A program made the position numbers and the translations under genes. The notes under the pieces are model-generated. The model saw only the letters and a list, made by a program, of their open reading frames with translations. It searched no databases and was not told the DNA's origin. A stretch of DNA of 64,000 bases from Candidatus Thermokryptus mobilis (GTDB lineage: Bacteria; Bacteroidota; Ignavibacteria; Kryptoniales; Kryptoniaceae), in assembly GCF_900070205.1 (NCBI RefSeq), contig NZ_FAOO01000002.1, positions 62,001 to 126,000 of the forward strand. Direction: 5' to 3'. Below are positions 4,570 through 11,074 of this stretch, piece after piece; the stretch's first letter is position 1, and each line of letters opens with the position of its first letter.

Positions 4570-7500
4570 ATGAACTTGAAAATTGACCCCGGGATTAAGG
4601 AAACTTCAAATGTTCAATCATTCTCACTGAAAACAGCCTTACTCTATTCTATACTTACCGCCTTAATTATAAATTTTGCGGTATTTCTGAATCAATGGTT
4701 TTACGGTGGAGAAATTGAACTTGACCTTTTCATCATACCTTCAGCAGTTGGAGCAATTTTTGGGATTATATTTTCAATGTTGAGATTGGCTGTTGAAAGA
4801 AAAATAGCAGAGGCGAAGAGATTCTGGGAAGGTGTGTTTCAGTCCGCGATAAATGGAATAATTTTAACCGATTTGACCGGAAAGATAAAATATGCAAACG
4901 ATTACGCCATCAATTATCACGAGTATACGCTTGAGGAGTTAAAGGAATTTTACATATTTGACCTTGTCACGCCTGAATTTATTGAAATAGTCCGCGAGTA
5001 TATAAAGGACTTAATTGAGCGAAATGAAACGGAAGCGCTTGAGATTGGGTTTTTAACAAAGAGTGGCAAAGTAAAATATGCTGAATTAAGCGGGAGGTTG
5101 GTAAAGCACGGTTCAAGTGAATTGATTCAATTTGTTGAGATTGACACAACTGAGAAAAGAAGATTTGAAAATGAACTGATTGAAGCAGAGAAAAAATACA
5201 GGGAACTTTTTGAAAACGCGGTCATCGGCGTATACAGGACAACACCAGACGGCAAGATAATTGATGTCAATCCTGCCTTTGTGAAAATGTTTGGTGCGAA
5301 GGACAAGTTTGAGATATTGCGAATGAAGGCATCCGATCTTTACGCTGACCCAAGGGACAGAGAAATTTTCATCCGCGCACTTGAAATTTCCGACTCAATA
5401 TCAAACTTTGAGAACAGATTAAAACGACTTGACGGGAAGGAAATAATAGTGCGTGAGCATGTAAGGGCTGTAAAGGACTCACTTGGAAATGTCATCTTTT
5501 ACGATGGAATGATTGAGGATATAACAGAGCAGAGAAAAGCAGAGGAGAAGCTAAAGGAGTCGGAAGAAAAATATAGAACGCTTGTTGAGGGTTCACTTGC
5601 TGGGACATATATCTTTCAGGATGGCAAATTCAAATTCGTCAGCGGTCAAATTCTTTCAATCTTCGGATTTACACCACAAGAAGTGCTTAACACAAGGAGA
5701 ATTTTAGAAATTGTTCATCCCGAAGACAGGAAAAAAGTGATTAAATTGTTCACTTCAAACTTGAAAGGTGATATTTCAAAGTCGGGCTCTCAATTCAGGA
5801 TTATTAAGAAGAACGGAGAAATAGCTTGGGTTGAGGTTCTTAATAATTTGATCAATTACGAGGGCAAGCCGGCGCTTTTAGGCACCATGCTTGATATAAC
5901 CGATAGAATAAAGGCAGAGCAAAGAAACAGGATAATGTCCCAGCTTTTACTTTCGCTTAACGATGCGGTTGTATTAACTGATGAAAATGGGAACATACTT
6001 GAAGTCAACGATGCCTTCTGCAGGGTAACCGGTTATTCAAAAGATGAAGTGATAGGCAAAAACCCAAGAATTTTAAAATCCGGGCTTCACGATGCGAATT
6101 TTTATAAAGAAATGTGGGAGTCAATTTTAACGAAGGGATATTGGAGAGGCGAGATAATAAACAAAAAGAAAAACGGGGAATTTTACTTCGCTTTACTTTC
6201 AATATCTTCAATTAAAGACGAGATTCACGGTTTGACTTATTATCTCGGGATTCAGTCCGATATAACCGAGCGAAAGAAAGCAGAGGAACAAATAAGATAC
6301 CAGGCGAATCTTCTTGAAAATGTCAACGACGCAATAATCGCAGCTGATTTGAATTATAGAATCACATCCTGGAACAAAGCAGCTGAGAAAATGTATGGAT
6401 ATAAAGCTGAGGAGGTCATTGGAAAAGAGATAAGCGAAGTTGTTAAAGTTGAATTCCCTGACTTGACGCGTGAGCAGGTAAGGCAAATACTTCAAGAAAA
6501 GGGATTTTGGAAAGGTGAAGCGATTCATTACAATAGATTTGGCGAAAAAATCTATGTCAGTTCTTCTCTTTCAATTATAAGAGACATCAACGGAAACCCG
6601 ATCGGAACGGTTGGGATAAACCGCGACATAACCGAGCAAAAGAAGGCGGAAGAGAAATTAAAACTTTACGCTGAACAGCTTGAACTAGCTAACGCACAAC
6701 TTCAGGAGCTGAACAAACTTAAAAGTGAATTTCTCGCTAATACCTCGCATGAACTTAGAACCCCATTGAATTCAATAATTGGATTTCTAAATCTCATCAA
6801 AGAAGGTCTTTACGAAAGTAAAGAAGAGATGATGCAATTTGTTGACAACGCTTTGATGAGTGCGAGGCATCTTTTGAACATAATAAATGACATACTTGAC
6901 ATAGCCAAAATTGAAGCTGGAAAACTTGAATTGACAATTGAAGATGTTGAGGTATCTGAACTTCTTCAAGAGGTTTGGACCCTGTCACATGTTCAGGCGG
7001 AGCAGAAAAAGCTTGAATATAGGGTGATATATCCCGAGAAGCCGATTTTCATAAGAGGGGACAGAAACCGTTTGAAACAAATTTTATTGAATTTGATCGG
7101 GAACGCAATAAAATTCACACATAAGGGTGGCATAACTGTAAAAGCGGAGGTTTTTGAGGAAAAAGGTCATTGCCAATTTTCTGTAATTGACACAGGAATT
7201 GGGATATCAAAAGAGAAGCAAGCGAAACTCTTCCAAAAGTTTGTTCAAGCTGATGGAACAACCACAAGAAAATACGGCGGAACAGGACTTGGCTTAGCCA
7301 TAACGAAAAGCTTGGTTGAGATAATGGGCGGTGTAATTGAACTTTTCAGCGAAGGTGAAGGCAAAGGAACAACAGTAACTTTTACGATACCACTGTCAAC
7401 GAAATCGTTTGATAAAGAAATCACGATAAAACAAGGTGAAATCTACGGCGATTCAGGCCTTCTGATACTTGCAGTTGATGACGACCCTGGATTTGCTGAA

Positions 7501-8244
7501 TTTTTGAAGACATTTCTTGTGAAAAACTCATTTAGGTTTTTATGGGTTGATAACGCAGATGACGGTTGGGATTACATATTGAAATTTAAGCCAGATGTTT
7601 TGATACTTGACTATGCAATCCCGCATAAATCTTCAGCAAAATTGAAAAACGGTTTTGATATAGTTTTGAGAATTTACGACACGCCCGAACTCAAAGACAT
7701 GCCTATAATCATCGTCACAGGTCATCTGCAAAAGGTAAATGAACTCCTGAAACTTTCATTTATAAATTTTAAGCCCAGCGTCGTTGAAAAACCAATTGAA
7801 CCTGAACATTTGCTCAAGATTTTGAAACAATTTGTAAAAGAAAAAAACGAAATTGACATATTGCTTGCTGATGATGACCCGAACATTGAAATTTTCCTTA
7901 GAAAAATTTTGCCACATAAATTTAAAATTGACTACGCAAAAAACGGAAAAGAAGCGATTGAAAAGATTAAATCCAAAAATTACGATATACTCCTGCTTGA
8001 TTTGATGATGCCTGAGCTAAATGGCTACGATGTCATCAGAGAACTCAGGATAAAAAAACTTGCCCCAGAACTCCCAATTCTTGTTATAACAAATTACCCA
8101 GAACCAACTACACAAGAAGAGAAAGAACTTCTCTCAAAGAGCATGGGGATAATCGTCGTTGATAAAAGCGAGCTTAACAGTCAGCCAGAAAAACTCATAT
8201 CATTGATAAACAAAAGCATTAAAACAAATCAAAGGATTGTTTGA
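4570..8244 (+). CDS. Multi-PAS hybrid sensor histidine kinase with two receiver domains
   Basis: A 1224-residue membrane-anchored sensor. Order: two transmembrane helices (about residues 22-70), five PAS/PAC units (about 85-200, 205-325, 330-440, 450-570, 575-695), a short coiled coil, a HisKA domain with the phospho-accepting His727 in SHELRTP, a complete HATPase (N-box LIGNAIKFTH, D-box DTGIGIS, G2 box GGTGLGLAI), then two receivers. The receivers carry acid pockets DDDP near 970 and 1099 and phosphoacceptor aspartates at about 1014 (LILDYA) and 1144 (LLLDLM). It probably autophosphorylates and passes phosphate to its own receivers or to the two response regulators that overlap it downstream. 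What the PAS domains sense is unknown. It is the only fully intact kinase in this block. Confidence 0.95.
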   Translation: MNLKIDPGIKETSNVQSFSLKTALLYSILTALIINFAVFLNQWFYGGEIELDLFIIPSAVGAIFGIIFSMLRLAVERKIAEAKRFWEGVFQSAINGIILTDLTGKIKYANDYAINYHEYTLEELKEFYIFDLVTPEFIEIVREYIKDLIERNETEALEIGFLTKSGKVKYAELSGRLVKHGSSELIQFVEIDTTEKRRFENELIEAEKKYRELFENAVIGVYRTTPDGKIIDVNPAFVKMFGAKDKFEILRMKASDLYADPRDREIFIRALEISDSISNFENRLKRLDGKEIIVREHVRAVKDSLGNVIFYDGMIEDITEQRKAEEKLKESEEKYRTLVEGSLAGTYIFQDGKFKFVSGQILSIFGFTPQEVLNTRRILEIVHPEDRKKVIKLFTSNLKGDISKSGSQFRIIKKNGEIAWVEVLNNLINYEGKPALLGTMLDITDRIKAEQRNRIMSQLLLSLNDAVVLTDENGNILEVNDAFCRVTGYSKDEVIGKNPRILKSGLHDANFYKEMWESILTKGYWRGEIINKKKNGEFYFALLSISSIKDEIHGLTYYLGIQSDITERKKAEEQIRYQANLLENVNDAIIAADLNYRITSWNKAAEKMYGYKAEEVIGKEISEVVKVEFPDLTREQVRQILQEKGFWKGEAIHYNRFGEKIYVSSSLSIIRDINGNPIGTVGINRDITEQKKAEEKLKLYAEQLELANAQLQELNKLKSEFLANTSHELRTPLNSIIGFLNLIKEGLYESKEEMMQFVDNALMSARHLLNIINDILDIAKIEAGKLELTIEDVEVSELLQEVWTLSHVQAEQKKLEYRVIYPEKPIFIRGDRNRLKQILLNLIGNAIKFTHKGGITVKAEVFEEKGHCQFSVIDTGIGISKEKQAKLFQKFVQADGTTTRKYGGTGLGLAITKSLVEIMGGVIELFSEGEGKGTTVTFTIPLSTKSFDKEITIKQGEIYGDSGLLILAVDDDPGFAEFLKTFLVKNSFRFLWVDNADDGWDYILKFKPDVLILDYAIPHKSSAKLKNGFDIVLRIYDTPELKDMPIIIVTGHLQKVNELLKLSFINFKPSVVEKPIEPEHLLKILKQFVKEKNEIDILLADDDPNIEIFLRKILPHKFKIDYAKNGKEAIEKIKSKNYDILLLDLMMPELNGYDVIRELRIKKLAPELPILVITNYPEPTTQEEKELLSKSMGIIVVDKSELNSQPEKLISLINKSIKTNQRIV

Positions 8245-8636
8245 TGCCTCATATACTTGTCGTTGAGGATGACAAATTAACTGCGCAACTTTTTGAAATA
8301 ATTTTGAAAAGGAGAGGGAAATTTGATGTGACCGTTACAGATGACGGGGATAAGATCATGGAAATTTTAAACTCGGGAAATGTTGACCTGATAATCATGG
8401 ATGTTTCGCTTTCGGGAACTATCGTTAACGGTTCCCAAGTTGACGGAATAAAACTTTCCAAGATGATAAAGGAGAATGAAAGGACTGCAAAAATTCCAAT
8501 AATACTTGCAACTGCACATGCCATGAGAGGCGATGCTGAAAGATTCCTTGAAGAAAGCAAAGCGGATGATTACATTTCAAAACCGATAACTGATCATAAC
8601 TTCTTGATTGAAAAAATTAAAAGGTTTCTAAAGTGA
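8244..8636 (+). CDS. Single-domain CheY-like response regulator
   Basis: A 130-residue stand-alone receiver domain with no output domain. It has the acidic pocket (VVEDD near residues 6-10), the phosphoacceptor Asp in IIMDVSL, the conserved Thr/Ser segment (LATAHAM) and Lys in ISKPI. I chose the ATG at 8244, whose A is the last base of the kinase stop codon, over the TTG one codon earlier. The overlap means translational coupling, so this is a likely direct phosphate acceptor for the hybrid kinase. A 5-residue insertion after the phosphosite (SGTIVNGSQVDG) is longer than usual. Confidence 0.92.
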   Translation: MPHILVVEDDKLTAQLFEIILKRRGKFDVTVTDDGDKIMEILNSGNVDLIIMDVSLSGTIVNGSQVDGIKLSKMIKENERTAKIPIILATAHAMRGDAERFLEESKADDYISKPITDHNFLIEKIKRFLK

Positions 8637-9304
8637 GCGATGAAATAAAGGGTAAAGTTTTAATCGTTGAAGACGATAAAAATTACGCTGAGATTTTGAA
8701 AAGGGTGATAATGAAAAACGAATATGAAATCAATTTAGCATACGATGGCAAGGAAGGTCTTGAACTTTCAACTAAATGGAAACCGGATGTGATAATTGTT
8801 GATTGGATGATGCCTGGGATGTCGGGGATTGAGTTGATCTCAAAGTTGAGGGAACATCCCGAATTGAGATTTTCATATATCATTATGCTAACAGCGAGAG
8901 TTGAAACCGAGGATAAAATAACCGGGCTTGAAGCTGGAGCCGACGATTTCATAACAAAGCCGGTTGATTTCGGTGAGCTCATCGCAAGGATAAGAGTCGG
9001 GTTTAGGATAAAAAAACTTCAAAGTGAAATAGCGGAGCTTCAACACGAATCCGCACTTCTTGAAATGGCAAGGACCCTTGGTCACGAGATAAACAACCCA
9101 CTCAACATAATTTACCTTGCGCTTGAACTTATAAATCGTGCCTTCAAAGAGGACAACCCCGACAAGGAAAAAATAATAGAAAATCTAAACCGTATCCATC
9201 AAGCTTCAGAAAGGATAAAAGAAATCGTCAACAAACTCATATCCTTGCGAAAACCCGCCTTTAAAGAATATGTAAACGGCAAAAGAATGCTTGACCTGGG
9301 TTAA
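8633..9304 (+). CDS. Receiver fused to a lone HisKA dimerisation domain (no ATPase domain)
   Basis: A 223-residue protein with a complete receiver (EDDK near residues 12-15, phosphosite IIVDWMMPG, TKPVD lysine) followed by a coiled linker and a HisKA-type dimerisation helix pair with an intact H-box (GHEINNPLN, His at about residue 151). The protein then stops; no N, D or G box follows, and the bases after the stop are non-coding in all frames, so this is not a recent frameshift. It may be a phosphotransfer protein (like Spo0B or ChpT in principle) or a dimerisation partner for the upstream kinase. The start is a GTG overlapping the previous stop by 4 nt. Confidence 0.85.
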   Translation: MSDEIKGKVLIVEDDKNYAEILKRVIMKNEYEINLAYDGKEGLELSTKWKPDVIIVDWMMPGMSGIELISKLREHPELRFSYIIMLTARVETEDKITGLEAGADDFITKPVDFGELIARIRVGFRIKKLQSEIAELQHESALLEMARTLGHEINNPLNIIYLALELINRAFKEDNPDKEKIIENLNRIHQASERIKEIVNKLISLRKPAFKEYVNGKRMLDLG

Positions 9305-9313
9305 AAAGCATAT

Positions 9314-9342
9314 AAAAATTACCCACCGTTTTTGTAATTTTT
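9314..9342 (+). terminator. Possible weak terminator hairpin after the signalling genes
   Basis: A perfect 9-bp inverted repeat, AAAAATTAC (9314-9322) and GTAATTTTT (9334-9342), with an 11-nt loop, lies just after the stop at 9304. The stem is AT-rich and its right arm supplies the T-run. It could weakly end the kinase transcript before the next gene, which starts about 120 nt later. Confidence 0.35.
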
Positions 9343-9463
9343 ACAAAGTCAATCGTTTAACCCCACTTTAAACTCCAATTTTTCAATTCTTTTCAAAACC
9401 TTCTACTTTGGCACAATAGTTGAGATTTTACTTTGTTAGAAGCGAACAAATTTGGTTTTAGAG

Positions 9464-9841
9464 ATGTCACTCGTTTGTAAAATTGTGGTTTATACCTCGG
9501 ACGAAAATTTCGCCAAGAGAGTTAAAGAAAATCTCGGTGAGGAAAAGTTCATCATAAAAGTTTTTGACCTTTTCTCCGATGTCGTTAAATCGCTTCAGGA
9601 AGAACTTCACGATATTCTAATTGTTGAGACGAACTTTCCGAACGAAGTTGAAGGTCTTTTGAAGGTTGCAGATAATATATTGTATGGGATTCCGATAATC
9701 GTTGCCTGTGACGACAAAACTTTCAAAGTTGAGGAAGGAAATAATTCAAGGTTTTACTTCATAAATAAATTTTCAAACGCAGAGGAATGGTTGTCGCTTC
9801 TCAAACTTGTGATAAGTGAAAACTATCTTATAACACTATAA
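9464..9841 (+). CDS. Degenerate receiver-like protein lacking the phosphoacceptor aspartate
   Basis: A 125-residue protein with the alternating strand/helix pattern of a response-regulator receiver: VVYTSD at strand 1, DILIVETNFP at strand 3, IPIIVACDD at strand 4 and a closing amphipathic helix. The position that normally holds the phosphoacceptor Asp is Glu55 (IVETNFP), and the N-terminal acid pair is reduced to a single Asp. Glu can mimic phospho-Asp, so it may be a constitutively 'on' or phosphate-independent adaptor. The ATG at 9464 is preferred to a TTG four codons upstream. The kinase-like gene starts 5 nt after it, so they likely act together. Family assignment by pattern only. Confidence 0.65.
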   Translation: MSLVCKIVVYTSDENFAKRVKENLGEEKFIIKVFDLFSDVVKSLQEELHDILIVETNFPNEVEGLLKVADNILYGIPIIVACDDKTFKVEEGNNSRFYFINKFSNAEEWLSLLKLVISENYLITL

Positions 9842-9845
9842 CGCT

Positions 9846-11012
9846 ATGACATCAATTGTGATTCAAAATATCATATTCATCGTTCTCGTCATTGGTTTCA
9901 GCTTTGTAGCAAAAAGATACGGGAGGAAAATTAAAAGTTCATTTAAAATTTTGGCTGGAATTATAATTCTGTGGTTTGCTTCACTTCTTAGTTTTTTTGA
10001 TCAATTCTGGCTTCAAATTTTTCTGTTAACTGCAGGTGTGTTTATCAGCGTAGCAGGCATGGTTTCATTTACAAGGGAATTAAAGAGGACGGATTTCAAC
10101 ATTGACTCGGTTGAGAAAGCTGTTGATTCAATTTTAATGGGTGTTGGAGGTAAGACAGCTTTAATTTACTTGATCAATGGGGGAAAAACCATCCGAAGTT
10201 TAAATTCACTCAAAGATGCAAGTTTCGCCTTATCAATCCCGATTTATAAAAATGCCGATATGATTGGTTATCTTGTTTTGTTTGGAGAACGACCCTTCAG
10301 CAAATTTAACGAGGAAAAATTTAAGACCGAGCTCGCGTTCCTTAAACTCTACCTTGAAAACCTATCCTTGAAAGAGAAGGAAGCGAAAAACATGAGCTCA
10401 CAGTATTTGTCAATTCTTGTGCATGATTTGAAAAAACCGCTGACGGCTATTTTGGGATTTTCCGAAATTTTAAAAGAGGAGATAAAAAATCTTTCTGAGG
10501 AAGAAGCGCTTGATTTAATCACCAACATAAACAAGGCAGGATTGGAGATGTTAGCGAACTTAAACCGATTAAACGAGTTATATGAAATTGAAGCCGGGCG
10601 ATATAAGTTAAAATTTGAGAGGTTAAACTTGTTGGACGAGATAAGAAATTCTCTTGCTTCCTTTTCAGACGAGATTGAAAAGAAGAAGATCAATATAATC
10701 ATTGACTCCGAACATGGATTTGAAATTTCAGCTGACAGGGAGAAAATAAGGGTTATGCTTTGTTATCTGTTTTCAAATGTCCTAAAATCGCTTGGTGAAA
10801 ATTCAACTTTGAGGATAAACATTCAGGAATTTGAAGAAAAAATTGAAATTTCAATTAAAGGGTTTACCCTTGGTTCGGGTCTTGATAGTGTTTTAATAAA
10901 AAGCATCGCTGAACTTCACGGTGGCTGGATAAGTTTAAGCAACGGGCATTTAAAACTTTACCTTCCGAAATTTAAAATTGAGGAAGGCGAAGAAAACTTC
11001 GCTTTAAATTAA
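9846..11012 (+). CDS. Membrane histidine kinase-like protein with shrunken ATP-binding domain
   Basis: 388 residues. Three hydrophobic helices fill about residues 1-75, then a GAF-like stretch (80-165), then a HisKA domain with an intact H-box (VHDLKKPLT, His193). The C-terminal ATPase region keeps an N-box-like segment (LFSNVLKSL) and a G2-like box with HGG (GSGLDSVL...AELHGG) but the D-box (DxGxG) and the whole ATP-lid loop between them, normally some 25 residues, are missing. It may bind nucleotide poorly and act as a sensor-scaffold for the degenerate receiver encoded 5 nt upstream. It ends before a strong terminator. Confidence 0.8.
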   Translation: MTSIVIQNIIFIVLVIGFSFVAKRYGRKIKSSFKILAGIIILWFASLLSFFDQFWLQIFLLTAGVFISVAGMVSFTRELKRTDFNIDSVEKAVDSILMGVGGKTALIYLINGGKTIRSLNSLKDASFALSIPIYKNADMIGYLVLFGERPFSKFNEEKFKTELAFLKLYLENLSLKEKEAKNMSSQYLSILVHDLKKPLTAILGFSEILKEEIKNLSEEEALDLITNINKAGLEMLANLNRLNELYEIEAGRYKLKFERLNLLDEIRNSLASFSDEIEKKKINIIIDSEHGFEISADREKIRVMLCYLFSNVLKSLGENSTLRINIQEFEEKIEISIKGFTLGSGLDSVLIKSIAELHGGWISLSNGHLKLYLPKFKIEEGEENFALN

Positions 11013-11042: not shown

Positions 11043-11074
11043 AGCACGGGTTATCCCTATCCCGTGCTTTTTTT
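11043..11074 (+). terminator. Rho-independent terminator between convergent operons
   Basis: An 8-bp stem AGCACGGG (11043-11050) pairs with CCCGTGCT (11061-11068) around a 10-nt loop and is followed by a T-run to 11074. It ends the plus-strand kinase-like gene. The stop codon of the opposing minus-strand gene (11073) lies inside the T-run. Confidence 0.9.

Follow-up and report, generated by a model that had tools for sequence, protein, structure and literature searches.

An aspartate-less receiver beside a histidine kinase without its ATP lid in Candidatus Thermokryptus mobilis: a probable stepwise loss within one genus

In the genome of Candidatus Thermokryptus mobilis, most likely a member of the Kryptonia group of hot-spring bacteria, a single-domain receiver without the phosphoacceptor aspartate is followed by a histidine kinase without most of its ATP lid, and the locus raises the question of when each half lost the residues for phosphate chemistry and how such a pair might still signal. 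A first-pass annotation of the window (the whole stretch of 64,000 nucleotides that was analysed) had proposed that both halves of this two-component pair diverged together into a phosphate-independent signalling unit. We compared the pair in seven genomes of the family, all of one genus, namely the genome of the window (G000, 2.42 Mb), its sister G006, with which it forms the lidless clade, and five relatives with an intact kinase (G001 to G005). The literature listings that we searched contained no paper on this receiver-kinase pair, and four two-component or sigma-54 terms gave no hits in the Kryptonia paper (PMC4737851).

Residue losses in the receiver and the kinase

9464–9841, + strand: aspartate-less single-domain receiver (pREC) of 125 aa, from the ORF, the alignment and the receiver fold of its AF2 model
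9626–9628, + strand: codon of Glu55 (GAG, counted from the ATG at 9464) in the phospho-Asp position of the alignment
9846–11012, + strand: membrane-type HisKA histidine kinase of 388 aa without a functional-looking ATP site, from the ORF, the HisKA match and the alignment
10422–10424, + strand: codon of the retained phospho-acceptor His193 (HDLKKP), from sequence and alignment
10853–10854, + strand: junction of kinase residues 336 and 337; the alignment with five intact orthologues shows a 22-residue block, D-box and lid included, to be missing here

The replacement of the phosphoacceptor by Glu55, reported at first pass, was confirmed by the alignment, and other active-site positions are altered as well: Thr11 and Ser12 stand where the acidic (Mg-binding) pair is expected, and Cys82 replaces the conserved (switch) Thr. 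All seven orthologous receivers have Glu at the phospho-Asp position and lack the acidic pair, its columns reading Thr and Ser/Thr/Asn, and the Thr column holds Cys in five genomes, Ser in one and Tyr in one; Lys102 and Phe99 are kept throughout. Asp13, one position past the lost acidic pair, is also invariant, so that metal binding is still conceivable. The protein thus combines a receiver fold with loss of the phospho-Asp and of other active-site residues, which makes it a pseudo-receiver. Its match to the Pfam receiver family PF00072 (E 0.093) was below the cut-off, as were weak matches to DpnII (E 0.0056) and KaiA_N (E 0.013), which were set aside. The AF2 model built from the seven sequences has a receiver fold (pLDDT 75.9; 40.6–62.9 for the other four models) in which a short strand takes the place of helix alpha4, and its best VIA match was 2qxy_A (Z 16.2, rmsd 2.1, 114 aligned). 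Foldseek E-values were modest (best 1.4e-4), and the PhoB D10A/D53E variant (2jb9, titled constitutively active) ranked 11 and 26 among many ordinary receivers. A sequence search of the PDB with the receiver profile gave a designed protein as best match, at E 0.046.

Clear orthologues of the receiver were not found outside the genus: a search of 54 such genomes returned a weak match in two, within frames of 462 and 472 residues, and a wider search matched eight of 395 genomes including G000, the other seven weakly (best E 8.1e-8), with Asp kept in six of these, Ala in one and Glu in none. The match with Ala (L051) comes from another family of the phylum and lies in a 317-residue frame.

To our knowledge, little is known of how pseudo-receivers act outside plants. 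The receiver resembles the aspartate-less and pseudo-receivers ChxR, RitR and FrzS in its Glu replacement and in the altered alpha4 region of its model. ChxR and RitR are DNA-binding regulators, unlike the receiver described here, a free-standing domain next to a kinase. Helix alpha1, with which receivers usually dock onto their kinase, has only one of its 11 positions invariant across six genomes (6/11 in each of two neighbouring receivers), which argues against textbook kinase docking; helix alpha3 has 6/11 (7/10 and 3/10 in the neighbours), and alpha3 would be the likelier contact of the two if the receiver binds a partner through a conserved face. The face used by FrzS is reported to be alpha3-beta4-alpha4 (PMC12632262). 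Pseudo-receivers make up about 6% of a representative bacterial receiver set (PMC12632262), and in aspartate-less receivers the phospho-Asp is most often replaced by Glu, in 26% (PMC4395418).

The kinase follows on the same strand, directly next as first annotated, with a gap of 4 nt (9842–9845) rather than 5. The D-box and about 25 residues of lid had been described as absent from it, in agreement with the block of 22 residues that is gone by comparison with the five intact orthologues and that covers the D-box, the F-box and most of the ATP lid. Further smaller gaps lie downstream of this block in the G000 kinase, and its G2 box reads GSGLDS in place of the GSGLGL or GTGLGL of the five orthologues. 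The HisKA domain (PF00512) was matched at E 9.9e-10 (38.8 bits), and no HATPase_c match was listed up to E 10. His193, Asn311 of the N-box and Lys314 are retained, the histidine being invariant in all seven kinases, and the protein thus has a DHp domain with the phospho-His. The N, D/G1, F and G2 boxes and the lid that characterise an active CA domain are all present in the five orthologues and incomplete in G000 and G006. The motif loss strongly suggests that ATP binding has been lost; with the fold kept, the gene under selection and kinase function gone as judged from its sequence, the protein belongs with the pseudo-histidine kinases. The membrane helices were judged by eye.

The acidic residue next to the histidine is Asp in the lidless clade only and Glu in the five other kinases; CrdS, with the same E-to-D change, had no detectable kinase activity (PMC3510030). 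Position H+4 holds Lys in six of the kinases and Arg in one, and a phosphatase role is disfavoured by these residues, since the HisKA phosphatases tested need Thr or Asn there (PMC3510030). The kinase model (mean pLDDT 69.6, pTM 0.45; 81–91 over residues 261–340 and 68 in the junction block 341–350) keeps a Bergerat (CA) core without the lid and matched many histidine kinase structures, with Z up to 18.6, among them HK853, CusS, DivL (4q20) and RetS; ChpT and Spo0B were not among the structure matches listed, which is neutral either way.

The G000 genome has 26 HisKA matches (25 over the cut-off), 23 of them with HATPase_c just downstream (lists compared by eye); the three without are the lidless kinase and two REC-DHp proteins. 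Among the matches listed, full-length relatives of the N-terminal part of the kinase (residues 1–172; 9846–10361) occur within the genus only, and those outside it start at residue 116 or later.

History and selection across seven genomes

The two genes are adjacent, on one strand and in the same place in all seven genomes, and in each are followed by genes matching a homocysteine methyltransferase-like protein and glycerate kinase. The D-box, lid and G2 box of the kinase are intact in G001 to G005 and lost in G000 and G006, whose kinases share 93% identity and the same lesion, which rules against an assembly error in a single genome. An unrooted tree of control genes set G000 and G006 apart from the other five with a support of 100. 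The joint divergence proposed at first pass does not agree with this distribution, as the receiver is Asp-less in all seven genomes, in five of them beside an intact kinase. That annotation had named orthologous pairs keeping both the Asp and the D-box as the observation that would speak against it; the Asp is kept in none of the seven and the D-box in five. With Glu in every receiver and intact kinase motifs in five genomes, and because regaining a lid is implausible, parsimony places the phosphate-dead receiver first and the kinase loss later. The simplest history would thus be that the receiver lost its site long ago, when its kinase presumably still worked, and that the kinase of one clade followed later. 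The features first annotated are real, and both halves in G000 do lack the residues for textbook phosphate chemistry while the gene pair is maintained, but the history drawn from them was wrong.

Rates of change led to the same conclusion. The stem ratio, which is the mean distance of G000 to the other genomes divided by the mean distance among those others, came to 1.41 when three control genes were joined; the receiver gave 1.38, the N-terminal part of the kinase 1.56, DHp 1.99 and the CA core 2.10. The fractions of 1000 bootstrap replicates at or below the controls were 0.598, 0.18, 0.029 and 0 for the four parts of the pair, respectively. Maximum likelihood branch-length ratios were 1.64 for the receiver and 1.66, 2.19 and 2.45 for the N-terminal part, DHp and CA (1.44 to 1.78 for single other genes present in all seven genomes). 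Single control genes spread from 1.27 to 1.68, the highest, GlyK (1.68; 1.44–2.00), overlapping the interval of the CA core (1.67–2.86), and the excess of the CA core is less clear against the kinase's own N-terminal part (fraction 0.03) than against the joined controls. The crown/stem ratio is distorted by saturation in fast genes and was left out of the argument. The rate burst on the stem of the lidless clade sits in the kinase transmitter, in CA and more weakly in DHp, and not in the receiver, which has no stem excess, contrary to joint divergence.

Between G000 and G006, dN/dS (Nei-Gojobori) was 0.054 for the receiver and 0.156 for the kinase, with 0.12 for the first 80 kinase residues, 0.315 for the middle domain, 0.133 for DHp and 0.116 for the CA remnant; four neighbouring genes, two of them partial, gave 0.054 to 0.186. 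The CA remnant carries 12 synonymous and six non-synonymous changes (p 2.7e-5, simple binomial test), a synonymous share above the neutral one, which indicates that the lidless gene is selected as a protein.

Promoter region and upstream neighbours

4570–8244, + strand: PAS-rich hybrid histidine kinase with two receivers, a possible phosphodonor, from domain content
8241–8636, + strand: receiver of 131 aa with an intact active site, from domain match and alignment
8633–9304, + strand: REC-DHp (HisKA) protein without CA, a possible partner, from domain matches and six orthologous loci (partial on the G003 contig)
9331–9347, no strand assigned: palindrome TTTGTAATTTTTACAAA, a possible activator-binding site upstream of the promoter, from intergenic alignment
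9409–9423, + strand: candidate sigma-54 (-24/-12) promoter of the pair, TGGCAC-N5-TTGA, conserved in 7/7 genomes
11043–11068, no strand assigned: terminator-like hairpin after the kinase with an 8-bp stem, a 10-nt loop and a T run, read by eye

The element before the receiver gene has the -24/-12 form of the sigma-54 promoter consensus, and its TGGCA and TTG are invariant and at fixed spacing in all seven genomes, the base after TTG being variable (T in G006). It was the sole match in the window, against a mean of 0.18 expected; one or more turned up in 15 of 100 shuffles. RpoN is encoded in the G000 genome, and a looser form, YTGGCAY-N5-TTGM, had 182 matches in the seven genomes (a G003 site on two overlapping contigs being counted twice) against 33 for the reversed control. 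For TTGGCAC-N5-TTGM, ten sites were found in the G000 genome against four for the reversed control, four of the ten lying inside same-strand ORFs of more than 100 aa. Two such elements lie 57 nt (L094, inside an opposite-strand ORF) and 54 nt (L101) before ORFs that we take to encode DnaK and a small heat-shock protein, respectively, which hints at a link of sigma-54 to heat stress. The palindrome block aligns in all seven intergenic regions, 61 nt upstream of the promoter element; TTTGTAA-TTT-TTACAAA is perfect in G000 and G002 only and near-perfect in the others. A genome search with TTTGNAATTTTTACMAA returned the palindrome as the only exact match, and six hits when one mismatch was allowed, against two for the reversed control, and this AT-rich palindrome is a possible activator site. 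A hairpin scan with a loop limit of 8 listed no terminator after the kinase.

The hybrid kinase, the free receiver and the REC-DHp protein encoded upstream are plausible partners of the pair. In the REC-DHp protein the motif around the histidine is HEINNP; its H+4 residue, Asn, is one that HisKA phosphatases have there, and the protein may therefore be a phosphatase or a phosphotransferase. It is one of two REC-DHp proteins without CA in the genome, the other (L080, 1468–2184) lying two genes after what is presumably the gene of a KaiC-like ATPase.

Possible roles of the pair

The receiver should not accept phosphate and thus most likely acts by binding, and in the intact relatives the phosphate of the kinase must then go elsewhere. 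Our tentatively preferred reading, which we regard as quite possible, is that the pair is a FixT/Osp-like Asp-less receiver modulating a membrane kinase, the kinase having become a pseudokinase in the G000/G006 clade. The two genes would form a co-expressed accessory signalling module. The pseudo-receiver, not phosphorylatable in the usual way, would be held in one state, perhaps through Glu55 facing Lys102, and would bind a transmitter protein, most likely the partner kinase. In the five relatives this partner looks like a working membrane kinase that would pass its phosphate elsewhere; in the G000/G006 clade it would have lost ATP binding while keeping the membrane portion, the DHp bundle and a reduced CA shell, and would now signal by contact with other two-component proteins in the style of RetS and DivL. 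Adjacency is the one link between receiver and kinase, and the contact proposed from it, like the direction of regulation and the signal, is presumptive.

FixT and Osp are receiver-like inhibitors that block the ATP-driven autophosphorylation of the kinases FixL and CckA (PMC9430884; PMC7078487) and, like the receiver here, are single domains that lack the acidic pair and are unphosphorylated, regulating their kinase by contact (PMC9430884). The likeness, for which we claim no orthology, has its limits, since Osp has the Asp but no Lys, the opposite of the Glu and Lys found here, and this counts against the preferred reading. In the G000/G006 clade, moreover, the adjoining kinase should hardly be able to autophosphorylate, unlike the targets of FixT and Osp, so that the receiver needs another role or target there than such inhibition. 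DivL and RetS, both among the structure matches, resemble the lidless kinase in that the fold is kept and kinase chemistry is lost or not needed; RetS is reportedly a pseudokinase. DivL has Tyr for His and keeps its lid (PMC4211667), whereas the kinase described here keeps its His and has lost the D-box and most of the lid. The CA-frameshift pseudokinase ChrS of Corynebacterium likewise lost CA function and gained a useful role, but arose in laboratory evolution. Two further points weigh against the preferred reading: His193, which is retained, would be dispensable in a pure scaffold, and the middle domain of the kinase has the higher dN/dS of 0.315.

A protein that hardly binds ATP may be either a pseudokinase acting by contact or a phosphotransferase charged by a receiver. 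The main rival reading is thus that the lidless protein is a histidine phosphotransferase like ChpT or Spo0B, in which only ATP use was lost and His193 relays phosphate from a receiver. A similar build, probable for the lidless protein, is seen in ChpT and Spo0B, where a dimeric DHp-like bundle is joined to a CA-like domain without ATP use; ChpT moreover has its lid replaced and its nucleotide pocket closed (PMC3433190). Phosphotransfer is established for these two and would be a prediction for the protein described here, which has helices that look membrane-spanning. A relay is favoured by the retained histidine and DHp bundle, by an H+4 residue (Lys or Arg) other than that of phosphatases, and by the three two-component genes next upstream (hybrid kinase, free receiver, REC-DHp protein), but the DHp domain changed faster than the controls on the stem (1.99, bootstrap fraction 0.029; ML 2.19), and we consider this reading rather unlikely. 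The kinase activity that was undetectable in CrdS (PMC3510030) is a further point against it, one that concerns ATP-driven phosphorylation only. Another protein might charge the phospho-His that the kinase has kept, and signalling without phosphate is thus no more than a possibility as far as the sequence goes. This bears on the fully phosphate-independent switch of the first-pass annotation, with a sensor that alters the state of the receiver by contact alone: purifying selection on both genes and the absence of each partner's own phosphate-chemistry residues in the G000/G006 clade agree with it, but His193 is kept, the receiver is Asp-less beside intact kinases too and there was no joint acceleration, which makes such a switch more unlikely still.

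With its DHp and histidine retained, the lidless kinase could also receive phosphate in trans from the CA domain of a second kinase, in heterodimers such as those seen for native ChrS and HrrS (PMC9491836), and could remain an ordinary phosphodonor. We consider this improbable: the kinase has no close paralogue, the next match in its own genome among those listed being at E 4.2e-13, and in the ChrS pseudokinase the histidine is reported as uninvolved and a truncated form as giving no two-hybrid interaction (PMC9491836). The least credible reading is that the kinase gene is decaying with no function left. The loss of CA motifs and the fast stem would fit decay, but the frame is open in both G000 and G006, the lesion is shared, and dN/dS is as low overall (0.156) and in the CA remnant (0.116) as in the neighbouring genes (0.054 to 0.186), which disfavours a pseudogene.

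More broadly, the pair may record a conversion within the genus of a membrane kinase into a kinase-dead DHp protein, a pseudokinase or a phosphotransferase, beside a receiver that was dead earlier, the pair now signalling without ATP or Asp chemistry of its own; we hold this to be possible, if somewhat more doubtful than the preferred reading. Pseudo-receivers and pseudo-histidine kinases are known kinds, and the useful part is the stepwise loss with an intact comparison set. In our judgement, pseudokinases and kinase-derived phosphotransferases have mostly arisen too long ago for their origins to be followed. In this genus the probable sequence of losses, with the receiver dead first and the kinase second, can be read, and five intact and two lesioned pairs in one genus, in the same place and with the same promoter element, allow a direct comparison of before and after. 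The lidless kinase, still kept by selection, thus offers a natural case of a kinase changing into another kind of protein.
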